Part shown: piece by piece, positions 16,517 to 56,662 of the stretch | Layout: the number at the start of each line of letters is the position of its first letter | Numbering within the stretch: position 1 is the first letter of the stretch | Assembly: GCA_016223145.1 (NCBI GenBank) | Contig: JACRPN010000011.1 | Location: 1-64,000, forward strand | Origin: Armatimonadota bacterium | GTDB taxonomy: Bacteria > Armatimonadota > Fimbriimonadia > Fimbriimonadales > Fimbriimonadaceae | Length of the DNA: 64,000 nucleotides | Direction: 5' to 3' | Position numbers and translations under genes: made by a program | The notes under the pieces: model-generated | The model's database searches: none | What the model was told of the DNA's origin: nothing | The model's input: the letters and a program-made list of their open reading frames with translations, nothing else

Positions 16517-18022
16517 ATGCAGCACTTGCGTTCTCAGATTGCAAAGATCGTTTGGACCCTTGGCGCTCTCAGCGCCATGACTCTCGGAATCCACGGACCC
16601 GCTCAAGCTCAAGGCAAGGATGATCCGCCCAAGCCCGTCGGCTGGGAAGTGAAGAGCACCAACACCCCTGGCGGAAAGGGCGAACTCGTCTCGCAAGGCG
16701 TCACAGGCAAGAAGACTCCTTACGCCAAGGCCAAGGCCGCCCCCTCGACCGCCGGCTCGGCAGTCGTTAACGTCCTGATCGTCTACTACGAGTCAAAGGA
16801 AGACCTCGACAAGGCGAACGAACTCGAAAAGAAAGAGAAGGAAGACGCCAAGAAGAAGAAGGCCGAAAAGACGACAAACTCCGGCGCCACGGCTGTGCCC
16901 GACGGCGGCAAGAAGGATGGAGGTAAGGGCGATGGGCAGCCTCAGCCCCCAAAGAAGGTTGATGGCAAGAAGGACCCCGCCAAGCAGCCCGAGCCGCCTC
17001 CCGTCATCACGTTCGACCCCCGAACGCACGAGCTAAAGGGCGGCAAAGTGGTGCCCAAGGACCCCAACCAAAAGAGTCTGAAGATGGGCGACCACAAATT
17101 CTGTGAGACCCCCGACCGGTTCGAGTGTGGCGAGCACTTCCAGTGGTGGCTGAATTCCCACGAGCACCGCAACGCGCCGAAGACGATCGACCCCGAAATC
17201 AAGCCGATGGACCTGAACGGCCAGCCCCGCATCATCATGTCGGGCTCGGTGATCGCCGGGCAGGACGCCATGGTGCGCGTCGTGGATGCTAAGGGCGCTT
17301 TCCTCTCAGGAGTGGTCGTTTCGATGCCCGATGGAACTCAAGCAACCACTGACGCCAATGGCAAAGCCACCGTCAAAGCGCCGAACGATTCGGACAAGCT
17401 GGTGCTCACTTTGGTGGGCCTCGGCGTGGCGGCGAACGCATGGATTCGGCCTTCCGGCGAGGGCAATGCCGCTCCGCGCATTGATCCGCCCAGCTTCATC
17501 CAGCCTGGCCAAGAGGCGTCCTTCGGATGGACCAATGGCGGTGCAAACTCCGTCATCCAGATCGACGGCAAGCCCGTCGAGATCCTTGCCACATCGCCCA
17601 CCGGATGCGTCGCGAGGATTCCGCAGGACCTCGCCCCTGGAACGCACACCATCGCCTTTTCCGACGGACACGGACAAGACCTCCTGTCTGAAGAGATCTC
17701 CATGTCCGTGGACGACGTGAAGCCGATCGAAGCGATCAGCCTATCGGTCGAGCCGCCAAAGACGCTGGTCGTCGGCCAGAAGGCGGTCTATACCGTCCGC
17801 GTGTTGGGAACCGACCGCAAGCTCGATCTCACGCTGGCGAACCTGAACCCTTCTGTGGCCACGCTCTCTGGCAAAGCCGCGACCAATTTCGTAAGCACTT
17901 CCGGCGGCAAGGACAACCGAGCAAGGATTGAGGTCCAGAGCGCATCCATGGGGCAGATCATGATCGCGGTCCAGATCGCCAAGTCGTCCACGATCGACCC
18001 GGCCGCAACGGGCAGCCGGTAG
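16517..18022 (+). CDS. large exported protein with Lys-rich linker and Ig-like domains
   Basis: 501 residues. Signal peptide ends near GPAQAQG (about residue 32). Residues ~85-170 are low-complexity, rich in Lys, Asp, Glu and Pro (KELEKKEKEDAKKKKAEK type). Next comes a carboxypeptidase-regulatory or Big_1-like beta domain (VRVVDAKGAFLSGVVVSMPD), an IPT-like domain (PPSFIQPGQEASFGWTNG) and a C-terminal Ig-like domain (ISLSVEPPKTLVVGQKAVY). GGAGG eight bases before the ATG at 16517 fixes the start. Probably a cell-surface or periplasmic structural protein; exact role unknown. Confidence 0.75.
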   Translation: MQHLRSQIAKIVWTLGALSAMTLGIHGPAQAQGKDDPPKPVGWEVKSTNTPGGKGELVSQGVTGKKTPYAKAKAAPSTAGSAVVNVLIVYYESKEDLDKANELEKKEKEDAKKKKAEKTTNSGATAVPDGGKKDGGKGDGQPQPPKKVDGKKDPAKQPEPPPVITFDPRTHELKGGKVVPKDPNQKSLKMGDHKFCETPDRFECGEHFQWWLNSHEHRNAPKTIDPEIKPMDLNGQPRIIMSGSVIAGQDAMVRVVDAKGAFLSGVVVSMPDGTQATTDANGKATVKAPNDSDKLVLTLVGLGVAANAWIRPSGEGNAAPRIDPPSFIQPGQEASFGWTNGGANSVIQIDGKPVEILATSPTGCVARIPQDLAPGTHTIAFSDGHGQDLLSEEISMSVDDVKPIEAISLSVEPPKTLVVGQKAVYTVRVLGTDRKLDLTLANLNPSVATLSGKAATNFVSTSGGKDNRARIEVQSASMGQIMIAVQIAKSSTIDPAATGSR

Positions 18023-18250: not shown

Positions 18251-18435
18251 GGCCTTTAGGCCGGGTGGGGGTGCTAGCGAGGGCCGAAGGTTGAGGGTTG
18301 AAGGACGAGGGTTGAAGGACGAAAGCCTGGGAAATGCGCCCCCTCACCCCGGCCCTCTCCCCCGCTATTCCAATTTCATGAAGGGCGTCGTCACTGGAGC
18401 GCGAGGGAGAGGGAGTTCCCCGGAACCACTCCTTG
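18250..18435. repeat. composite repeat insertion before the URO-D gene
   Basis: This stretch contains GGTTGAGGGTTGAAGGACG units and then CCCCCTCACCCCGG...GAGGGAGAGGGAG arms, related to the CCCCCTCACCC family at 30058, 45394, 55135 and 59637. It separates the third, intact copy of the gene-start block from the duplicated ones. Confidence 0.55.
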
Positions 18436-18450
18436 CGCCACAATCCCCGT

Positions 18451-19566
18451 GTGACCCCGCGCGAACGGTTCATTTCTGCACTTGAGAGAAGGCCCTATGC
18501 CGGCCGGGTGCCCCACTTTGAGCTCGTTTTTTTTCTGACCATGGAGGCGTTCGGCAAGGTCCACCCCAGCCACCGCTACTACGAACAATGGCACCAAATG
18601 TCGGAAGCCGAGCGCGAAATGCACCGCAAGGACATGGCTCAGCTCTTCGTGGACACCGCCGAGCGCTTCGAGCACGACGCGATCTTCGTCCACCCCAACC
18701 CCGGCGGCGTCGCCGAGGAGATTCGGCTGCTCGACGCGATCCGAGACATCGATGGCGGCAAGTACTTCCTGATGATGCACGGCGACCCGACCTACGCCAT
18801 CCCCAGCGGCGCGCAGATGGAGGAGATGAGCGTGCGCATGAACGAGGACCCCGAGGCGGTCGAGAAAGACGCGCAGCGGAGCCTGGACTGGCACCTGAAG
18901 CGGGCCGACCGGCTGGCGGCCCACGGGGTGCTGGATGGCTTCGCGCTGTGCTCGGATTACTGCTTCAATTCGGGGTGCTTTCTGCCGATGCCGTGGTTCG
19001 ACCGGTTCGTGACGCCGTACCTGCACGCGAGCTACCGGGAGTATCGGGATCGGGGGTTCTACGTGACCAAGCACACGGACGGCAACATCATGCCGATCCT
19101 GGACCGGTTGGTGCCTTCGGGGATTTCGGATTGCGGATTGCGGATTGCGGATTCTGGGACCAGCGAGCCCGGAGCCGAAAGGAACCGAGGCGATGGGTCC
19201 GGAACGCACTCGATACCAGGCGGGAGCAAAGTCTCCGAACCCAATCCGAAATCCGAAATCCGCAGTCCGAAATCATCTGCCCTTCCCCACGCCCTCCATT
19301 CCCTCGACCCCCAGGGCGGGGTGGACATGGCGGAGGTGGTACGGCTCGTGGGCGACCAGGTGTGCCTCTGCGGCAACGTGGACTGCGGGAAGCTGCAGAC
19401 CGGCACCGACGAAGAGTGCATCGAGTCGGCGCGGTACGCCCTGTTGCAAGGAATGAAGGCTCCTGGCTACATCTTCAGCACCAGCAACTGCATCTACACG
19501 GGCATGGAGCTGGAAAGGTACGAACTGGTAAGGCAGGTTTGGCTGCGGGAGGGGAGTAGGTGCTAG
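18451..19566 (+). CDS. uroporphyrinogen decarboxylase (URO-D) family protein with an in-frame repeat insertion
   Basis: 371 residues from GTG 18451 (MTPRERFISALERR, the usual opening of this family). CACAAT lies six bases upstream, so it is possibly leaderless. It is closer to the corrinoid-methyltransferase-like and uncharacterised URO-D branch than to HemE, because the HemE RQAGR motif is absent. Family-like blocks: SDYCFNSGCFLPMPWFD, VTKHTDGNIMPILDRLV, LHSLDPQGGVDMAEV and LCGNVDCGKLQTGT. Between LVPSGI and HALHSLDP about 56 residues of low complexity are inserted (19123-19290), made of GGATTGC repeats and their reverse-complement arm. Activity unknown. Confidence 0.85.
   Translation: MTPRERFISALERRPYAGRVPHFELVFFLTMEAFGKVHPSHRYYEQWHQMSEAEREMHRKDMAQLFVDTAERFEHDAIFVHPNPGGVAEEIRLLDAIRDIDGGKYFLMMHGDPTYAIPSGAQMEEMSVRMNEDPEAVEKDAQRSLDWHLKRADRLAAHGVLDGFALCSDYCFNSGCFLPMPWFDRFVTPYLHASYREYRDRGFYVTKHTDGNIMPILDRLVPSGISDCGLRIADSGTSEPGAERNRGDGSGTHSIPGGSKVSEPNPKSEIRSPKSSALPHALHSLDPQGGVDMAEVVRLVGDQVCLCGNVDCGKLQTGTDEECIESARYALLQGMKAPGYIFSTSNCIYTGMELERYELVRQVWLREGSRC
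19123..19290. repeat. composite inverted repeat inserted in frame in the URO-D gene
   Basis: 168 bp (56 codons). The left arm has GGATTGC-type heptads (19128-19155) and the right arm CCGAAAT-type heptads (19243-19275) that are its reverse complement. No stop codon is present in the gene's frame. Confidence 0.75.
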
Positions 19567-25044: not shown

Positions 25045-25145
25045 GGAGAGGGTGAGCATGGTGAAAGGGTGAGAAGGGCGAGAATGACACCGGATTGAGT
25101 CCGGCAATTCTCACAATTCTCACAACTCTCACAACTCTCACAAGC
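25045..25145. repeat. composite repeat (GGTGAG/CTCACA) between L6 and L18
   Basis: The left arm has GGTGAGCATGGTGAAAGGGT and the right arm CAATTCTCACAATTCTCACA, 9-nt units. Same family at 33380-33475 and 56573-56662. Confidence 0.7.
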
Positions 25146-26080: not shown

Positions 26081-26504
26081 GCTCGTGAAAAGCCCGATCG
26101 GCAACACCAAAACCAACCGCAGGACCGTCGCGGCGCTCGGACTCAGGAAGATGCACCACACGGTGTATCTGCCCGACAACGCGGCTGTGCGCGGAATGGT
26201 GCACCACGTGAAGCACATGCTGGAGGTCGCGGTGGTGGACGATTCGGAAGCGCCCAAGAAAACGGCAACGGTCAAGAAGAAAACTGCGCCCAAGCCCGCA
26301 GTAGCGCCGAGACCCGCTGTTGCGCCGAAGGCCGTCACCGCAAAACCGTCCGACGTGTCTGACAAGTCGGACAAGTCCGACACAGACGGCGAAACGAAAG
26401 CCCCAAAGCCCGAGACCCCCAAAGCTGCAAAGCCCAAGGCTGTGGCTGCCCCGAAACCCAAAGCGGCTTCTGCCAGTAAAACTACCAAGAAGGCGAAGGA
26501 GTAA
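26067..26504 (+). CDS. rpmD: 50S ribosomal protein L30 with a long Ala/Lys/Pro-rich tail
   Basis: 145 residues, against the usual ~60. Residues 1-58 are L30 (MLRIKLVKSPIGNTKTNRRT, LGLRKMHHTVYLPDN, VRGMVHHVKHMLEV). Residues 60-145 are a low-complexity KxAPKPxVAP tail. A stretch VSDKSDKSDTDGE is encoded by GACAAGTCG-type 9-nt repeats (26355-26390), so it may also be repeat-derived. The tail is probably disordered and basic, possibly RNA-binding. The frame runs straight to L15, four bases later. Confidence 0.93.
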   Translation: MLRIKLVKSPIGNTKTNRRTVAALGLRKMHHTVYLPDNAAVRGMVHHVKHMLEVAVVDDSEAPKKTATVKKKTAPKPAVAPRPAVAPKAVTAKPSDVSDKSDKSDTDGETKAPKPETPKAAKPKAVAAPKPKAASASKTTKKAKE

Positions 26505-28318: not shown

Positions 28319-28321
28319 GGG

Positions 28322-28545
28322 CTGGTTTTCGGGTTGTCGGGTTTTCAGGTGTTCGGGTGTTCAGGTTTTCAGGTTCTTGGGTTTTCAGGTTCTTGGGTTC
28401 TTGGGTTTTCGGGTTCTTGGGCCGGGCACTTCCCGACCACCCAACCACCTGACGCCCTGACCACCTGACAACCCAACCACCTGGCCACCTGACCACCTGA
28501 CAACCTCAGCACCTGAAAACCCGAACACCAGCCCTCCCTTCGGTT
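28322..28545. repeat. large composite inverted repeat after secY
   Basis: About 110 bp of GGTTTTC/GGTTCTTG heptads followed by about 110 bp of CCACCTGA/CAACCTG/AACCACC units, the reverse complement. Together they could form a long imperfect hairpin. No gene in 28319-28630 otherwise. Members of the same family are inside rimO. Confidence 0.75.
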
Positions 28546-36929: not shown

Positions 36930-36965
36930 GGCCGTCGGCGCAAGCCGGCGGCCATTTCTTTGTTT
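36930..36965 (+). terminator. flagellin terminator
   Basis: GGCCGTCGGC and GCCGGCGGCC form a 10-bp stem with a GCAA loop, followed by ATTTCTTTGTTT. The T tract overlaps the last bases of convergent rimO. Confidence 0.85.
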
Positions 36966-38607
36966 AGGAGGCCCAAAGATCGTATTCGCCAGCTTTCGTG
37001 ACTTCGACTTCCATGAACTCCCCCTGGCCACGGACCTCGGACCTCGGACCTTCCACATACACCAGACCGTCGATCTCGGGCGCGTCGCGGTGGGAGCGAG
37101 CGATAAGGGTGGTGTTCAGGTTTTGGGTGTTCAGGTTCTGGGTTTTCAGGTTTTCAGGACCTGTCCCCCCGGCCACCTGAGAACCTGATGACCTGAACAC
37201 CTCATCACCTGAACCCCCGACCACCTGAGAGCCTGAAAACCTGACAACCTGGCCACCTGCAACCTCCCCCTCCACCAGCACCTTGAGCTTCTTCCCCACC
37301 CAGCCCTGGTTCACCTCAAGCGAGATGCCCTGCTGCAGGCGCATGAGCGTGTCGTAACGAAGCTGTTTGACCCGGGGCGACACCTGCCCCTCCATGTCGT
37401 GGCTCGGGGTCCCTGGTTCGCGGGAGTATTTGAACGCCCCCACCCGGTCCAGCCGCGCCGACCGCATGAACTCGAGCAGGTATTCGAACTCCTCGTCGGT
37501 CTCGCCCGGAAAGCCCACGATGAACGTCGTGCGGATCGCACATTCCGGCATCGCCGTACGCAGATTCTCAAAGAGCTTCAAATAGCGCTCGCCGTCCCAG
37601 GGGCGCTTCATCCGGCGCAGCGTCTCGGGGTGCGCGTGCTGCAGCGGGATGTCGATGTACGGCAACACCTTCGGCAGCGTGGCCATCGCCTCGACGACCT
37701 CGTCGGTCAGGCGGTTGGGATAGAAATACAAGATGCGAATCCACTCGATCCCGTCGATCCCGTTGAGCTCGCGCAGGAGCCTTGGGAGCGTGAACTCTCG
37801 ATAGAGGTCATAGCCGTACTGCGTGACGTCCTGCGCGATCAGATTGAGCTCTTTGGCGCCCGTGCTCGCCAGGAACCTCGCCTCTTCTACCAGGCGCTCG
37901 ATCGGCTTGCTTTGGTGCGCCCCCCGAAAGCTGGGAATGGTGCAAAACGTGCACTTGTGGTCGCAGCCTTCGCTAACTTTGAGATAGGCAGACCAGGGAT
38001 GGCCCGAACGAATGCGCGTTTTCACGTCGGCCCAAAGATGATGGGGCGGGTCAATGTTGGGGCTGTGGGGTTCCGGGGTTGGGGTCTGGGGAACTTGATC
38101 CGGGGGGCCAGACTGAGAGCGTGGCAAGCCGGTAGCACTGGAAATGATCGCCTCTTTTCGGAGCAAGCCCTGCCCGACACCCGTACCCCGGACCCCAGAC
38201 CCCAGACCCCGAACGCCCCCGACGATCTCGCCAAACCGCGCCATCTGCCCCACTCCGACATAGGTGTCTGCGCCGGGGGCCAGCTTGGCGAGCTCCGGCC
38301 CGAGCCTTTGGGCGAGACATCCGGCGACGATGACCTTGCCGATGCGTCCCGCCTTCCTCTCACGCACAGCCTCACGGATGGCGCGGACCGATTCCTCCTT
38401 GGCGGCCTCGAGAAAGCCGCAGGTGTTGATGACCACCACGTCGGCCTTGCGCGCGCCGCCGTCGATTTGGTATCCCGACTCGGCCAACACGCCGGCGATC
38501 TCTTCCGAGTCGACGTCGTTCTTGGCGCACCCGAGCGTCACGATCTTGACCTTGGGAGCCCTAAGGGGAGGCGAATCCGGCACGGGGAGATTATGAACGA
38601 GGTTCAC
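36964..38607 (-). CDS. rimO: ribosomal protein S12 methylthiotransferase RimO with two in-frame repeat insertions
   Basis: 547 residues from GTG 38607, which overlaps the upstream stop as GTGA. A radical-SAM enzyme that adds a methylthio group to the S12 Asp. N-terminal UPF0004 Cys in TLGCAKNDVDSEE, TCGFLEAAKEES and AGCLAQR; radical SAM Cys in EGCDHKCTFCTIPSFRG; C-terminal TRAM-like domain. Two low-complexity insertions, about 56 residues (DNA 38047-38214) before the radical SAM domain and about 50 residues (37111-37260) in the TRAM part, are made of repeat DNA. Removing them gives 441 residues, the normal length. A third small GGTCCGAGGTCCGAG patch gives GPRSEVRGQGEF near the end. Confidence 0.93.
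   Translation of the reverse strand: MNLVHNLPVPDSPPLRAPKVKIVTLGCAKNDVDSEEIAGVLAESGYQIDGGARKADVVVINTCGFLEAAKEESVRAIREAVRERKAGRIGKVIVAGCLAQRLGPELAKLAPGADTYVGVGQMARFGEIVGGVRGLGSGVRGTGVGQGLLRKEAIISSATGLPRSQSGPPDQVPQTPTPEPHSPNIDPPHHLWADVKTRIRSGHPWSAYLKVSEGCDHKCTFCTIPSFRGAHQSKPIERLVEEARFLASTGAKELNLIAQDVTQYGYDLYREFTLPRLLRELNGIDGIEWIRILYFYPNRLTDEVVEAMATLPKVLPYIDIPLQHAHPETLRRMKRPWDGERYLKLFENLRTAMPECAIRTTFIVGFPGETDEEFEYLLEFMRSARLDRVGAFKYSREPGTPSHDMEGQVSPRVKQLRYDTLMRLQQGISLEVNQGWVGKKLKVLVEGEVAGGQVVRFSGSQVVGGSGDEVFRSSGSQVAGGTGPENLKTQNLNTQNLNTTLIARSHRDAPEIDGLVYVEGPRSEVRGQGEFMEVEVTKAGEYDLWAS
37111..37260. repeat. composite repeat inserted in frame in rimO (C-terminal)
   Basis: 150 bp (50 codons). TTCAGG/GGGTGTTCAGGTTCTGGG units, then ACCTGAGAACCTGATGACCT and similar, the reverse complement. 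Same family as 28322-28545. Encodes a Gly/Ser/Val/Asn-rich stretch without a stop. Confidence 0.8.
38047..38214. repeat. composite repeat inserted in frame in rimO (central)
   Basis: 168 bp (56 codons). GGGGTTGGGGTCTGGGG on one side, ACCCCGGACCCCAGACCCCA on the other, again heptads with a reverse-complement arm. Same family as 48715-48775. Confidence 0.8.
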
Positions 38608-48454: not shown

Positions 48455-48805
48455 GCCATCCCTCGGCTGCGATGGGAGACAGGTTGGGTTGTTTCGGGGG
48501 TGGCAGGCACTTCCCCAATTTCCACTCCTCTATAGGGAGATGAGGAGTGAGGCGATTCCGCCGGGACGGTGGGCGGCAGCCAGCCTTCCACCATTCGCCT
48601 CTCGCTTCTCGCCTCTCGCCTCTCGCCTCTCGCCCCCTACGAGGCGGAGACGCAATTCCCTGTTTGCATTCCCTAAAACACTGAGGAGTGAGGGAAATAG
48701 AAGGGAGGTGTAGGGTTCGGGGTCTGGGGTCTGGGGTCTGGAAGAGACACACCGTAGACCCCAGACCCCACACCATACCTATCCCACGTCCCCACTTTCA
48801 CTCGG
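48455..48805. repeat. repeat-rich spacer after ndh
   Basis: No gene. Includes CACTCCTC...GAGGAGTG arms, (CGCCTCT)n from about 48596 to 48636, CCCTAAAACACTGAGGAGTG (48671-48690, repeated with one change at 54722), and GGGTCTG heptads with their reverse-complement arm (48718-48775). Confidence 0.7.
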
Positions 48806-56572: not shown

Positions 56573-56662
56573 GGGACGGTGAGAATGGTGAATGGGTGAG
56601 AATGGTGAGAATGGCCCCGGTCAATTCTCACAACCCTCACCACTCTCACGACTCTCACGTCC
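56573..56662. repeat. composite repeat (GGTGAG/CTCACA) upstream of ftsZ
   Basis: GGTGAGAATGGTGAATGGGT and GAATGGTGAGAATGG, then CAATTCTCACAACCCTCACC and ACTCTCACGACTCTCAC. It lies where the ftsZ promoter is expected. (CGCCTCT)n follows at 56822-56858. No gene in 56547-56876. Confidence 0.7.

Follow-up and report, generated by a model that had tools for sequence, protein, structure and literature searches.

Arrays of the G-rich heptamer GGGAATC are mostly intergenic in Xanthomonas, where each genome contains 70–75 close convergent pairs whose members lie on opposite strands (Rehm et al. 2015, PMC4692102). Heptameric G-rich repeats of this kind, GGGAATC and GGGGA(C/T)T in Xanthomonas and Nostoc, form one unit family per genome, with arms of one family and 7–11% of the copies intragenic (at least partly overlapping an ORF); G-quadruplex formation in vitro is a further mark of the class, and the function of the Xanthomonas arrays was left open (Rehm et al. 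2015, PMC4692102). The TAACTGA heptamers of Beggiatoaceae and Cyanobacteria also constitute one family, lie mostly just upstream of start codons, and include one inverted case (PMC4679880). Rickettsia palindromic elements, described by Ogata and colleagues, are ~150 bp long and fall into families with conserved sequence and peptide (PMC10969869). Borg tandem repeats are perfect, exhibit an A bias, and have lengths divisible by three when they occur within ORFs (PMC9879509). Vertebrate interstitial telomeric sequences are short G-strand repeats inserted at double-strand breaks (PMC7215372, PMC8537989). The origin of dispersed heptamer-type bacterial repeats is unexplained in the literature found, and a search that was thin on subscription journals returned nothing on such arrays in Armatimonadota.

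The window analyzed here, 64,000 nucleotides from the draft genome of an Armatimonadota bacterium (Fimbriimonadaceae), contains a rimO gene with three repeat-derived inserts (Table 1). The ORF scores 468 bits against the RimO profile TIGR01125 (NCBIfam; cutoff 357), its product contains UPF0004, radical SAM and TRAM domains together with six cluster cysteines, and its nearest kin belong to Fimbriimonadaceae and other Armatimonadota. In an alignment of this locus with 80 related loci, the linker before the radical SAM domain spans 87 residues, and nearly all Armatimonadota have 44 there; for the TRAM stretch the corresponding lengths are 66 and 18–21. The extra residues, ~134–178 (positions 38074–38208) and 453–499 (37111–37251), are shared by none of the aligned relatives, and the loop residues adjoining the inserts also differ from those of relatives. 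A preliminary description of this DNA had proposed that rimO received two distinct in-frame inserts, each from its own repeat family, and this is borne out: one is built on the heptamer GGGTCTG and the other on the octamer CAGGTNNT, and the relatives have neither. The sizes it assigned, 56 and 50 residues, exceed the net gains of ~43 and ~48 because its boundaries included some ancestral loop sequence, and it overlooked the third insert, a short heptamer array.

Table 1. Coordinates of rimO, its inserts, and related repeat features. Positions are those of the window unless preceded by the handle of another locus.
Feature	Position	Strand	Remarks
rimO, 547 aa, three repeat-derived inserts	36964..38607	(-)	GTG start, TIGR01125
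Insert 1 region, linker before radical SAM domain	38067..38217	(-)	net gain ~43 aa
Insert 1, GGGTCTG heptamers on coding strand	38180-38217		
Insert 1, unique centre	~38105-38179		~75 nt
Insert 1, C-rich complementary arm	38067-38104		
Insert 2, TRAM domain	37111..37260	(-)	net gain ~48 aa
Insert 2, 8-mer CAGGTNNT octamer array	37159-37260		
Insert 2, C-rich reverse arm	37111-37158		15-nt register
Insert 3, three GGTCCGA heptamers	37031..37051	(-)	net gain 4 aa; absent from preliminary description
Paired element in ORF 18433-19566 (URO-D-like)	19116..19275	(.)	GGATTGC arm, centre, AATCCGA arm
Paired nonamer element	25049..25143	(.)	AGGGTGAGA then CAACTCTCA
Paired octamer element	28321..28516	(.)	G-rich arm then C-rich arm
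Paired GGGTCTG element	48707..48778	(.)	insert 1 family
Paired nonamer element	56578..56658	(.)	GGTGAGAAT then CAACTCTCA
Palindromic GTCSGAC nonamer sites	window 26347-26383; L140:8348-8394; L141:13369-13405; L150:15954-15984, 16968-17004		
Nested pair in G045	L311:9397-9667		GATTGAC arm, GAGGAAT arm, CCTCTATC arm, GTCAATC arm
AGCCCCTCCCTTGGTTTTGCGAAGCGAAACTGAGGGAGGGGTTGGGGTGGGAGAC copies	L141:5999-6108; L275:417-472; L266:3090-3144; L261:1094-1148; L150:14372-14424; others		
CCCCTCACCCCCGTTCACTGCGTTCACGG repeat copies	L137:8109-8241; L253:12308-12347; L250:12550-12591; L276:184-222; others		

The catalytic Cys motifs had been described as intact, and all six cluster cysteines (C27, C63, C97, C215, C219 and C222) are indeed present and invariant in the RimO alignment. 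An AlphaFold2 model built from a 35-row alignment has an ordered core, with most blocks at pLDDT >90, and its top PDB fold match is Thermotoga maritima RimO (4jc0; TM-score 0.92 by target length). The pLDDT values fall below 50 at residues 136–151, 158–183 and 458–495, such that the inserts are predicted to be disordered. RimO thus modelled keeps its fold and, as had been expected of it, is probably active with two disordered loops.

In both large inserts a G-rich array is followed by a middle stretch and then by a C-rich array, the arms being paired and inverted. Within insert 2 the coding frame is the only one of six that is stop-free (the other five contain 2–4 stops each), and TGA-bearing units are replaced within the register of the reverse arm, from which we infer that purifying selection keeps this reading frame intact; the predicted tryptic peptide of the insert is FSGSQVVGGSGDEVFR. 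None of the aligned distant RimO proteins has the residues inserted here, and one has arrays of its own: in L028, from a species in a different family of the Fimbriimonadales (genome G041; contig coordinates identical to G038), RimO carries 15 and 26 extra residues at the same two loops, also in G-then-C layout, with a different unit (GATTGAC ... GTCAATC). Both RimO loops tolerate inserts, and more than one event of this process has taken place there.

The inserts are not peculiar to rimO: they comprise two complete copies and a minimal one of a structure class that is found across the genome and that many conserved genes also carry. A period scan of 453 kb of the genome, much of it chosen around known arrays, identified 47 arrays of period 7, 51 of period 8 and 19 of period 9, and since a codon-block shuffle of the same set contains one such array against the 117 real ones, chance is excluded. 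An unselected, fresh 789 kb contains 50, 25 and 5 arrays of period 7, 8 and 9, period 7 being represented most often there; in all, sampling comprised 1.24 Mb, roughly one third of the genome. Twenty relatives, sampled at 20 kb each, have four period 7–9 arrays altogether, mostly codon-like 9-mers, and further stretches of two congeners have none. The array expansion is lineage-specific and genome-wide. The units are degenerate and 7–9 nt long, and the same unit families recur at dozens of unrelated sites; there are 23 distinct perfect 7-mer units in addition to 8-mers, rather than a single GGGNATC-type family. As a separate observation, the genome measures 3.87 Mb, ~1 Mb more than the two congeners (2.8–2.9 Mb), whose sampled stretches hold no arrays.

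Genomes G038, G029 and G045, whose assemblies are independent of this one, contain arrays of like kind. Stretches of these genomes were chosen partly by the GATTGAC unit, and the occurrence of GATTGAC in several of them is therefore not counted as transfer; AATCCGC in G045 is the only unit match that was not pre-selected. Plasmids searched with a RimO fragment of 36 residues gave no match. Assembly or sequencing artefact might be suspected in a draft genome of 23 contigs, but it is extremely improbable as an explanation for hundreds of arrays that obey one polarity rule, remain in frame in conserved genes, and have similar counterparts in independently assembled genomes.

The arrays are under-represented within genes and enriched between them: 36 are coding, 67 intergenic and 11 partial, though ~83% of bases are called coding (gene calls were made with a simple hexamer-based script). 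Coding copies include an in-frame array in miaB, in the same linker as in rimO, a clean in-frame 28-residue insertion in lpd (lipoamide dehydrogenase, Lpd), and an in-frame array in aspA (aspartate ammonia-lyase, AspA); ORFs for an M3 peptidase, TilS and an M20 amidohydrolase also contain arrays. Such copies show that core enzymes (RimO, MiaB, Lpd) can acquire disordered loops derived from repeat DNA with their genes still intact. A nonamer family of palindromes (GTCSGAC plus 2 nt) was also observed; it has no G/C polarity and often lies in ORFs as Ser-Asp-type repeats.

Intergenic enrichment would be consistent with in-place replication slippage, in which pairs would be retained for a useful hairpin, in RNA for instance, that joins a G-rich 5' arm to a C-rich 3' arm, the copies in coding sequence being neutral by-products. 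In other bacteria long SSRs most often have units of period 7, for which slippage has been proposed (work cited in PMC4679880 and PMC4692102), and MutS, present here and in all genomes tested, fits this explanation as well; its presence led us to reject loss of mismatch repair. Slippage in place is nevertheless unlikely, as it leaves unexplained both the multi-family mosaics and the reappearance of the same units at so many unrelated sites, and the polarity extends to coding sequence and to arms that are unable to pair.

This polarity is the strongest result: whichever strand is read, G-rich arrays precede C-rich ones, with array orientation assigned by G/C skew. Three comparisons document it. 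First, pairs within 200 nt are 22 G-then-C versus 1 C-then-G in the discovery set, and 13 versus 0 in the fresh 789 kb. Second, 57 of the 58 multi-array clusters in both sets have every G-rich array before every C-rich array; 2000 shuffles of the labels gave 37.7 such clusters on average and 48 at most. Third, G045, from a distant family of the phylum, exhibits 11 G-then-C pairs and no C-then-G pair. The order is kept in convergent, divergent, tandem and intragenic contexts; gene orientation was thus rejected as its source, and the polarity is a property of the elements themselves. Approximately 126 of the 213 clusters in this genome are one-sided. The arms of the 35 G-then-C pairs are clearly related in 11 and clearly unrelated in 19, so hairpin pairing alone is insufficient to account for the polarity, which between non-complementary arms does not come from hairpin selection. 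A rule valid across unrelated families, all gene contexts and two distant genomes restricts the candidate mechanisms to directional ones, such as the repair of broken DNA ends, and it can be checked by strain comparison.

The centres between the arms are mostly unshared. In the genome, the insert 1 centre matches only itself, plus one hit at E=0.57, and a clearly dispersed non-array repeat is contained in 2 of the 21 tested centres. These REP-like repeats also occur without arrays, and a shared mobile core was rejected; the proposal that the inserts are element copies with a common body fails on the unique centre of insert 1 and on the pairs with unrelated arms. The arrays have diffuse edges, and empty sites, at which a target-site duplication as expected of MITEs could be sought, did not turn up; among paralogues, the search for them gave one 15-nt match, not of the required kind, and no break-repair junction was seen. 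Two dispersed repeats were noted separately from the arrays. The first, AGCCCCTCCCTTGGTTTTGCGAAGCGAAACTGAGGGAGGGGTTGGGGTGGGAGAC, is a REP-like palindrome present at at least 10 sites, usually without arrays; the second consists of CCCCTCACCCCCGTTCACTGCGTTCACGG followed by a CCCTCTCCC/GGGGAGAGGG hairpin.

The main rival explanation sees in the arrays mobile hairpins of a REPIN- or MITE-like type, non-autonomous, with tandem-unit ends, and moved in trans by a Y1 transposase (RAYT or IS200-type); the polarity would then be the ancestral orientation of inverted ends, and the mosaics would arise from nested insertion and decay. It draws on the single-family inverted arms of both rimO inserts, of 11 of the 35 pairs here, and of G045, where most pairs have complementary arms and one is nested, as well as on the scatter of unit families over many sites. 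This genome also has 12 matches to Y1_Tnp (PF01797), of several subtypes, the highest number among 26 genomes searched. However, the arrays are not concentrated around its Y1_Tnp genes, as would be expected of REPINs, whose repeats flank the RAYT gene, and RAYT co-location was rejected; the relatives G006, G013 and G015 have 8–9 Y1 matches each, yet the sampled stretch of G013 contains just one weak 8-mer array. The mostly unshared centres and the persistence of polarity in the 19 pairs with unrelated arms also argue against it, as does the miaB copy, in which a mosaic left arm of five G-rich arrays from three families precedes one C-rich array of a fourth, a series (G1 G2 G1 G3 G1 C4) that does not resolve into nested pairs. 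On balance, mobile hairpins appear a doubtful source of the arrays.

The layout common to the class is 5'-flank, G-rich array(s), a mostly unshared centre, C-rich array(s), and 3'-flank; read from either strand, it gives the appearance of G-rich repeats appended to each flank at its 3' end, with the ends head to head. The lack of a common centre argues against whole-element copying, and the recurrent unit families mean that existing arrays act as templates or seeds; together with polarity that does not depend on hairpins, these features favor repair of ends or forks with repeat addition. From the layout we infer, tentatively, that the arrays are scars of polar repeat addition to G-strand 3' ends, followed by joining, at broken ends or stalled forks. 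The 3' end at a break or stalled fork would gain repeats through slippage or a switch of template, G-rich 3' tails being preferred, and the use of other arrays as templates would spread unit families and form mosaics. Two extended ends would then be joined, or one tail would snap back on itself before joining. Within genes, purifying selection would leave only in-frame, stop-free products in flexible loops, and RimO would for this reason retain its fold and cysteines. Weighing against this end-repair reading are the complementary and nested pairs of G045, the one-sided clusters, the absence of any gradient of repeat homogeneity (age) within the arms, and the lack of an enzyme in the searches.

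Those searches covered several candidates. RVT_1 has no match in this genome, which is 97% complete, and a telomerase-like reverse transcriptase was rejected, although a very divergent reverse transcriptase could still exist. Ku likewise has no match, and Ku-type end joining was rejected. An SbcD-like match is absent from this genome, and both congeners have a weak one; loss of this hairpin nuclease might allow inverted arrays to survive. Several relatives that are poor in arrays also have no SbcD-like match, so SbcD loss is just a lead. It is conceivable, though a long shot, that the arrays reflect a directional process of some bacteria, a counterpart of telomere-repeat addition at breaks that operates without a known reverse transcriptase, adding short G-rich repeats onto 3' ends that are then joined head to head; the rimO arrays would be its fossils and the Xanthomonas pairs another outcome.

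For the proposed end-repair mechanism, vertebrate interstitial telomeric repeats are the nearest analogue: the head-to-head layout here matches fused G-strand ends, but those sequences derive from one telomerase-templated unit, whereas many units occur here and no reverse transcriptase match was found. Like Borg repeats, the in-gene arrays stay in frame and form disordered segments (PMC9879509); unlike them, the units measure 7–8 nt and are degenerate, with G polarity and frequent pairing. The parallel with Rickettsia palindromic elements, drawn at the outset, fits in outcome, as in-frame insertion is tolerated in conserved genes (rimO, miaB, lpd, aspA), but not in anatomy: the bodies here are mostly unshared tandem arrays, without conserved sequence or peptide. 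With the TAACTGA heptamers they share dispersed 7-nt direct repeats in mostly intergenic positions, but that single family has its one inverted case, whereas here many families are often paired. The closest known kind is the convergent GGGAATC heptamer pairs of Xanthomonas, which have the same polarity. As in Xanthomonas and Nostoc, the arrays are dispersed, G-rich, mostly intergenic and have variable positions, and as in Xanthomonas close pairs are convergent. The arrays here differ in comprising many families, with periods of 7, 8 and 9, in their mosaic arms, in a polarity that extends to unrelated arms, and in having in-frame copies within genes for core enzymes. Polarity that crosses families, many unit families in a single genome, and insertion into core enzyme genes thus extend beyond what Rehm et al. 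described (PMC4692102).
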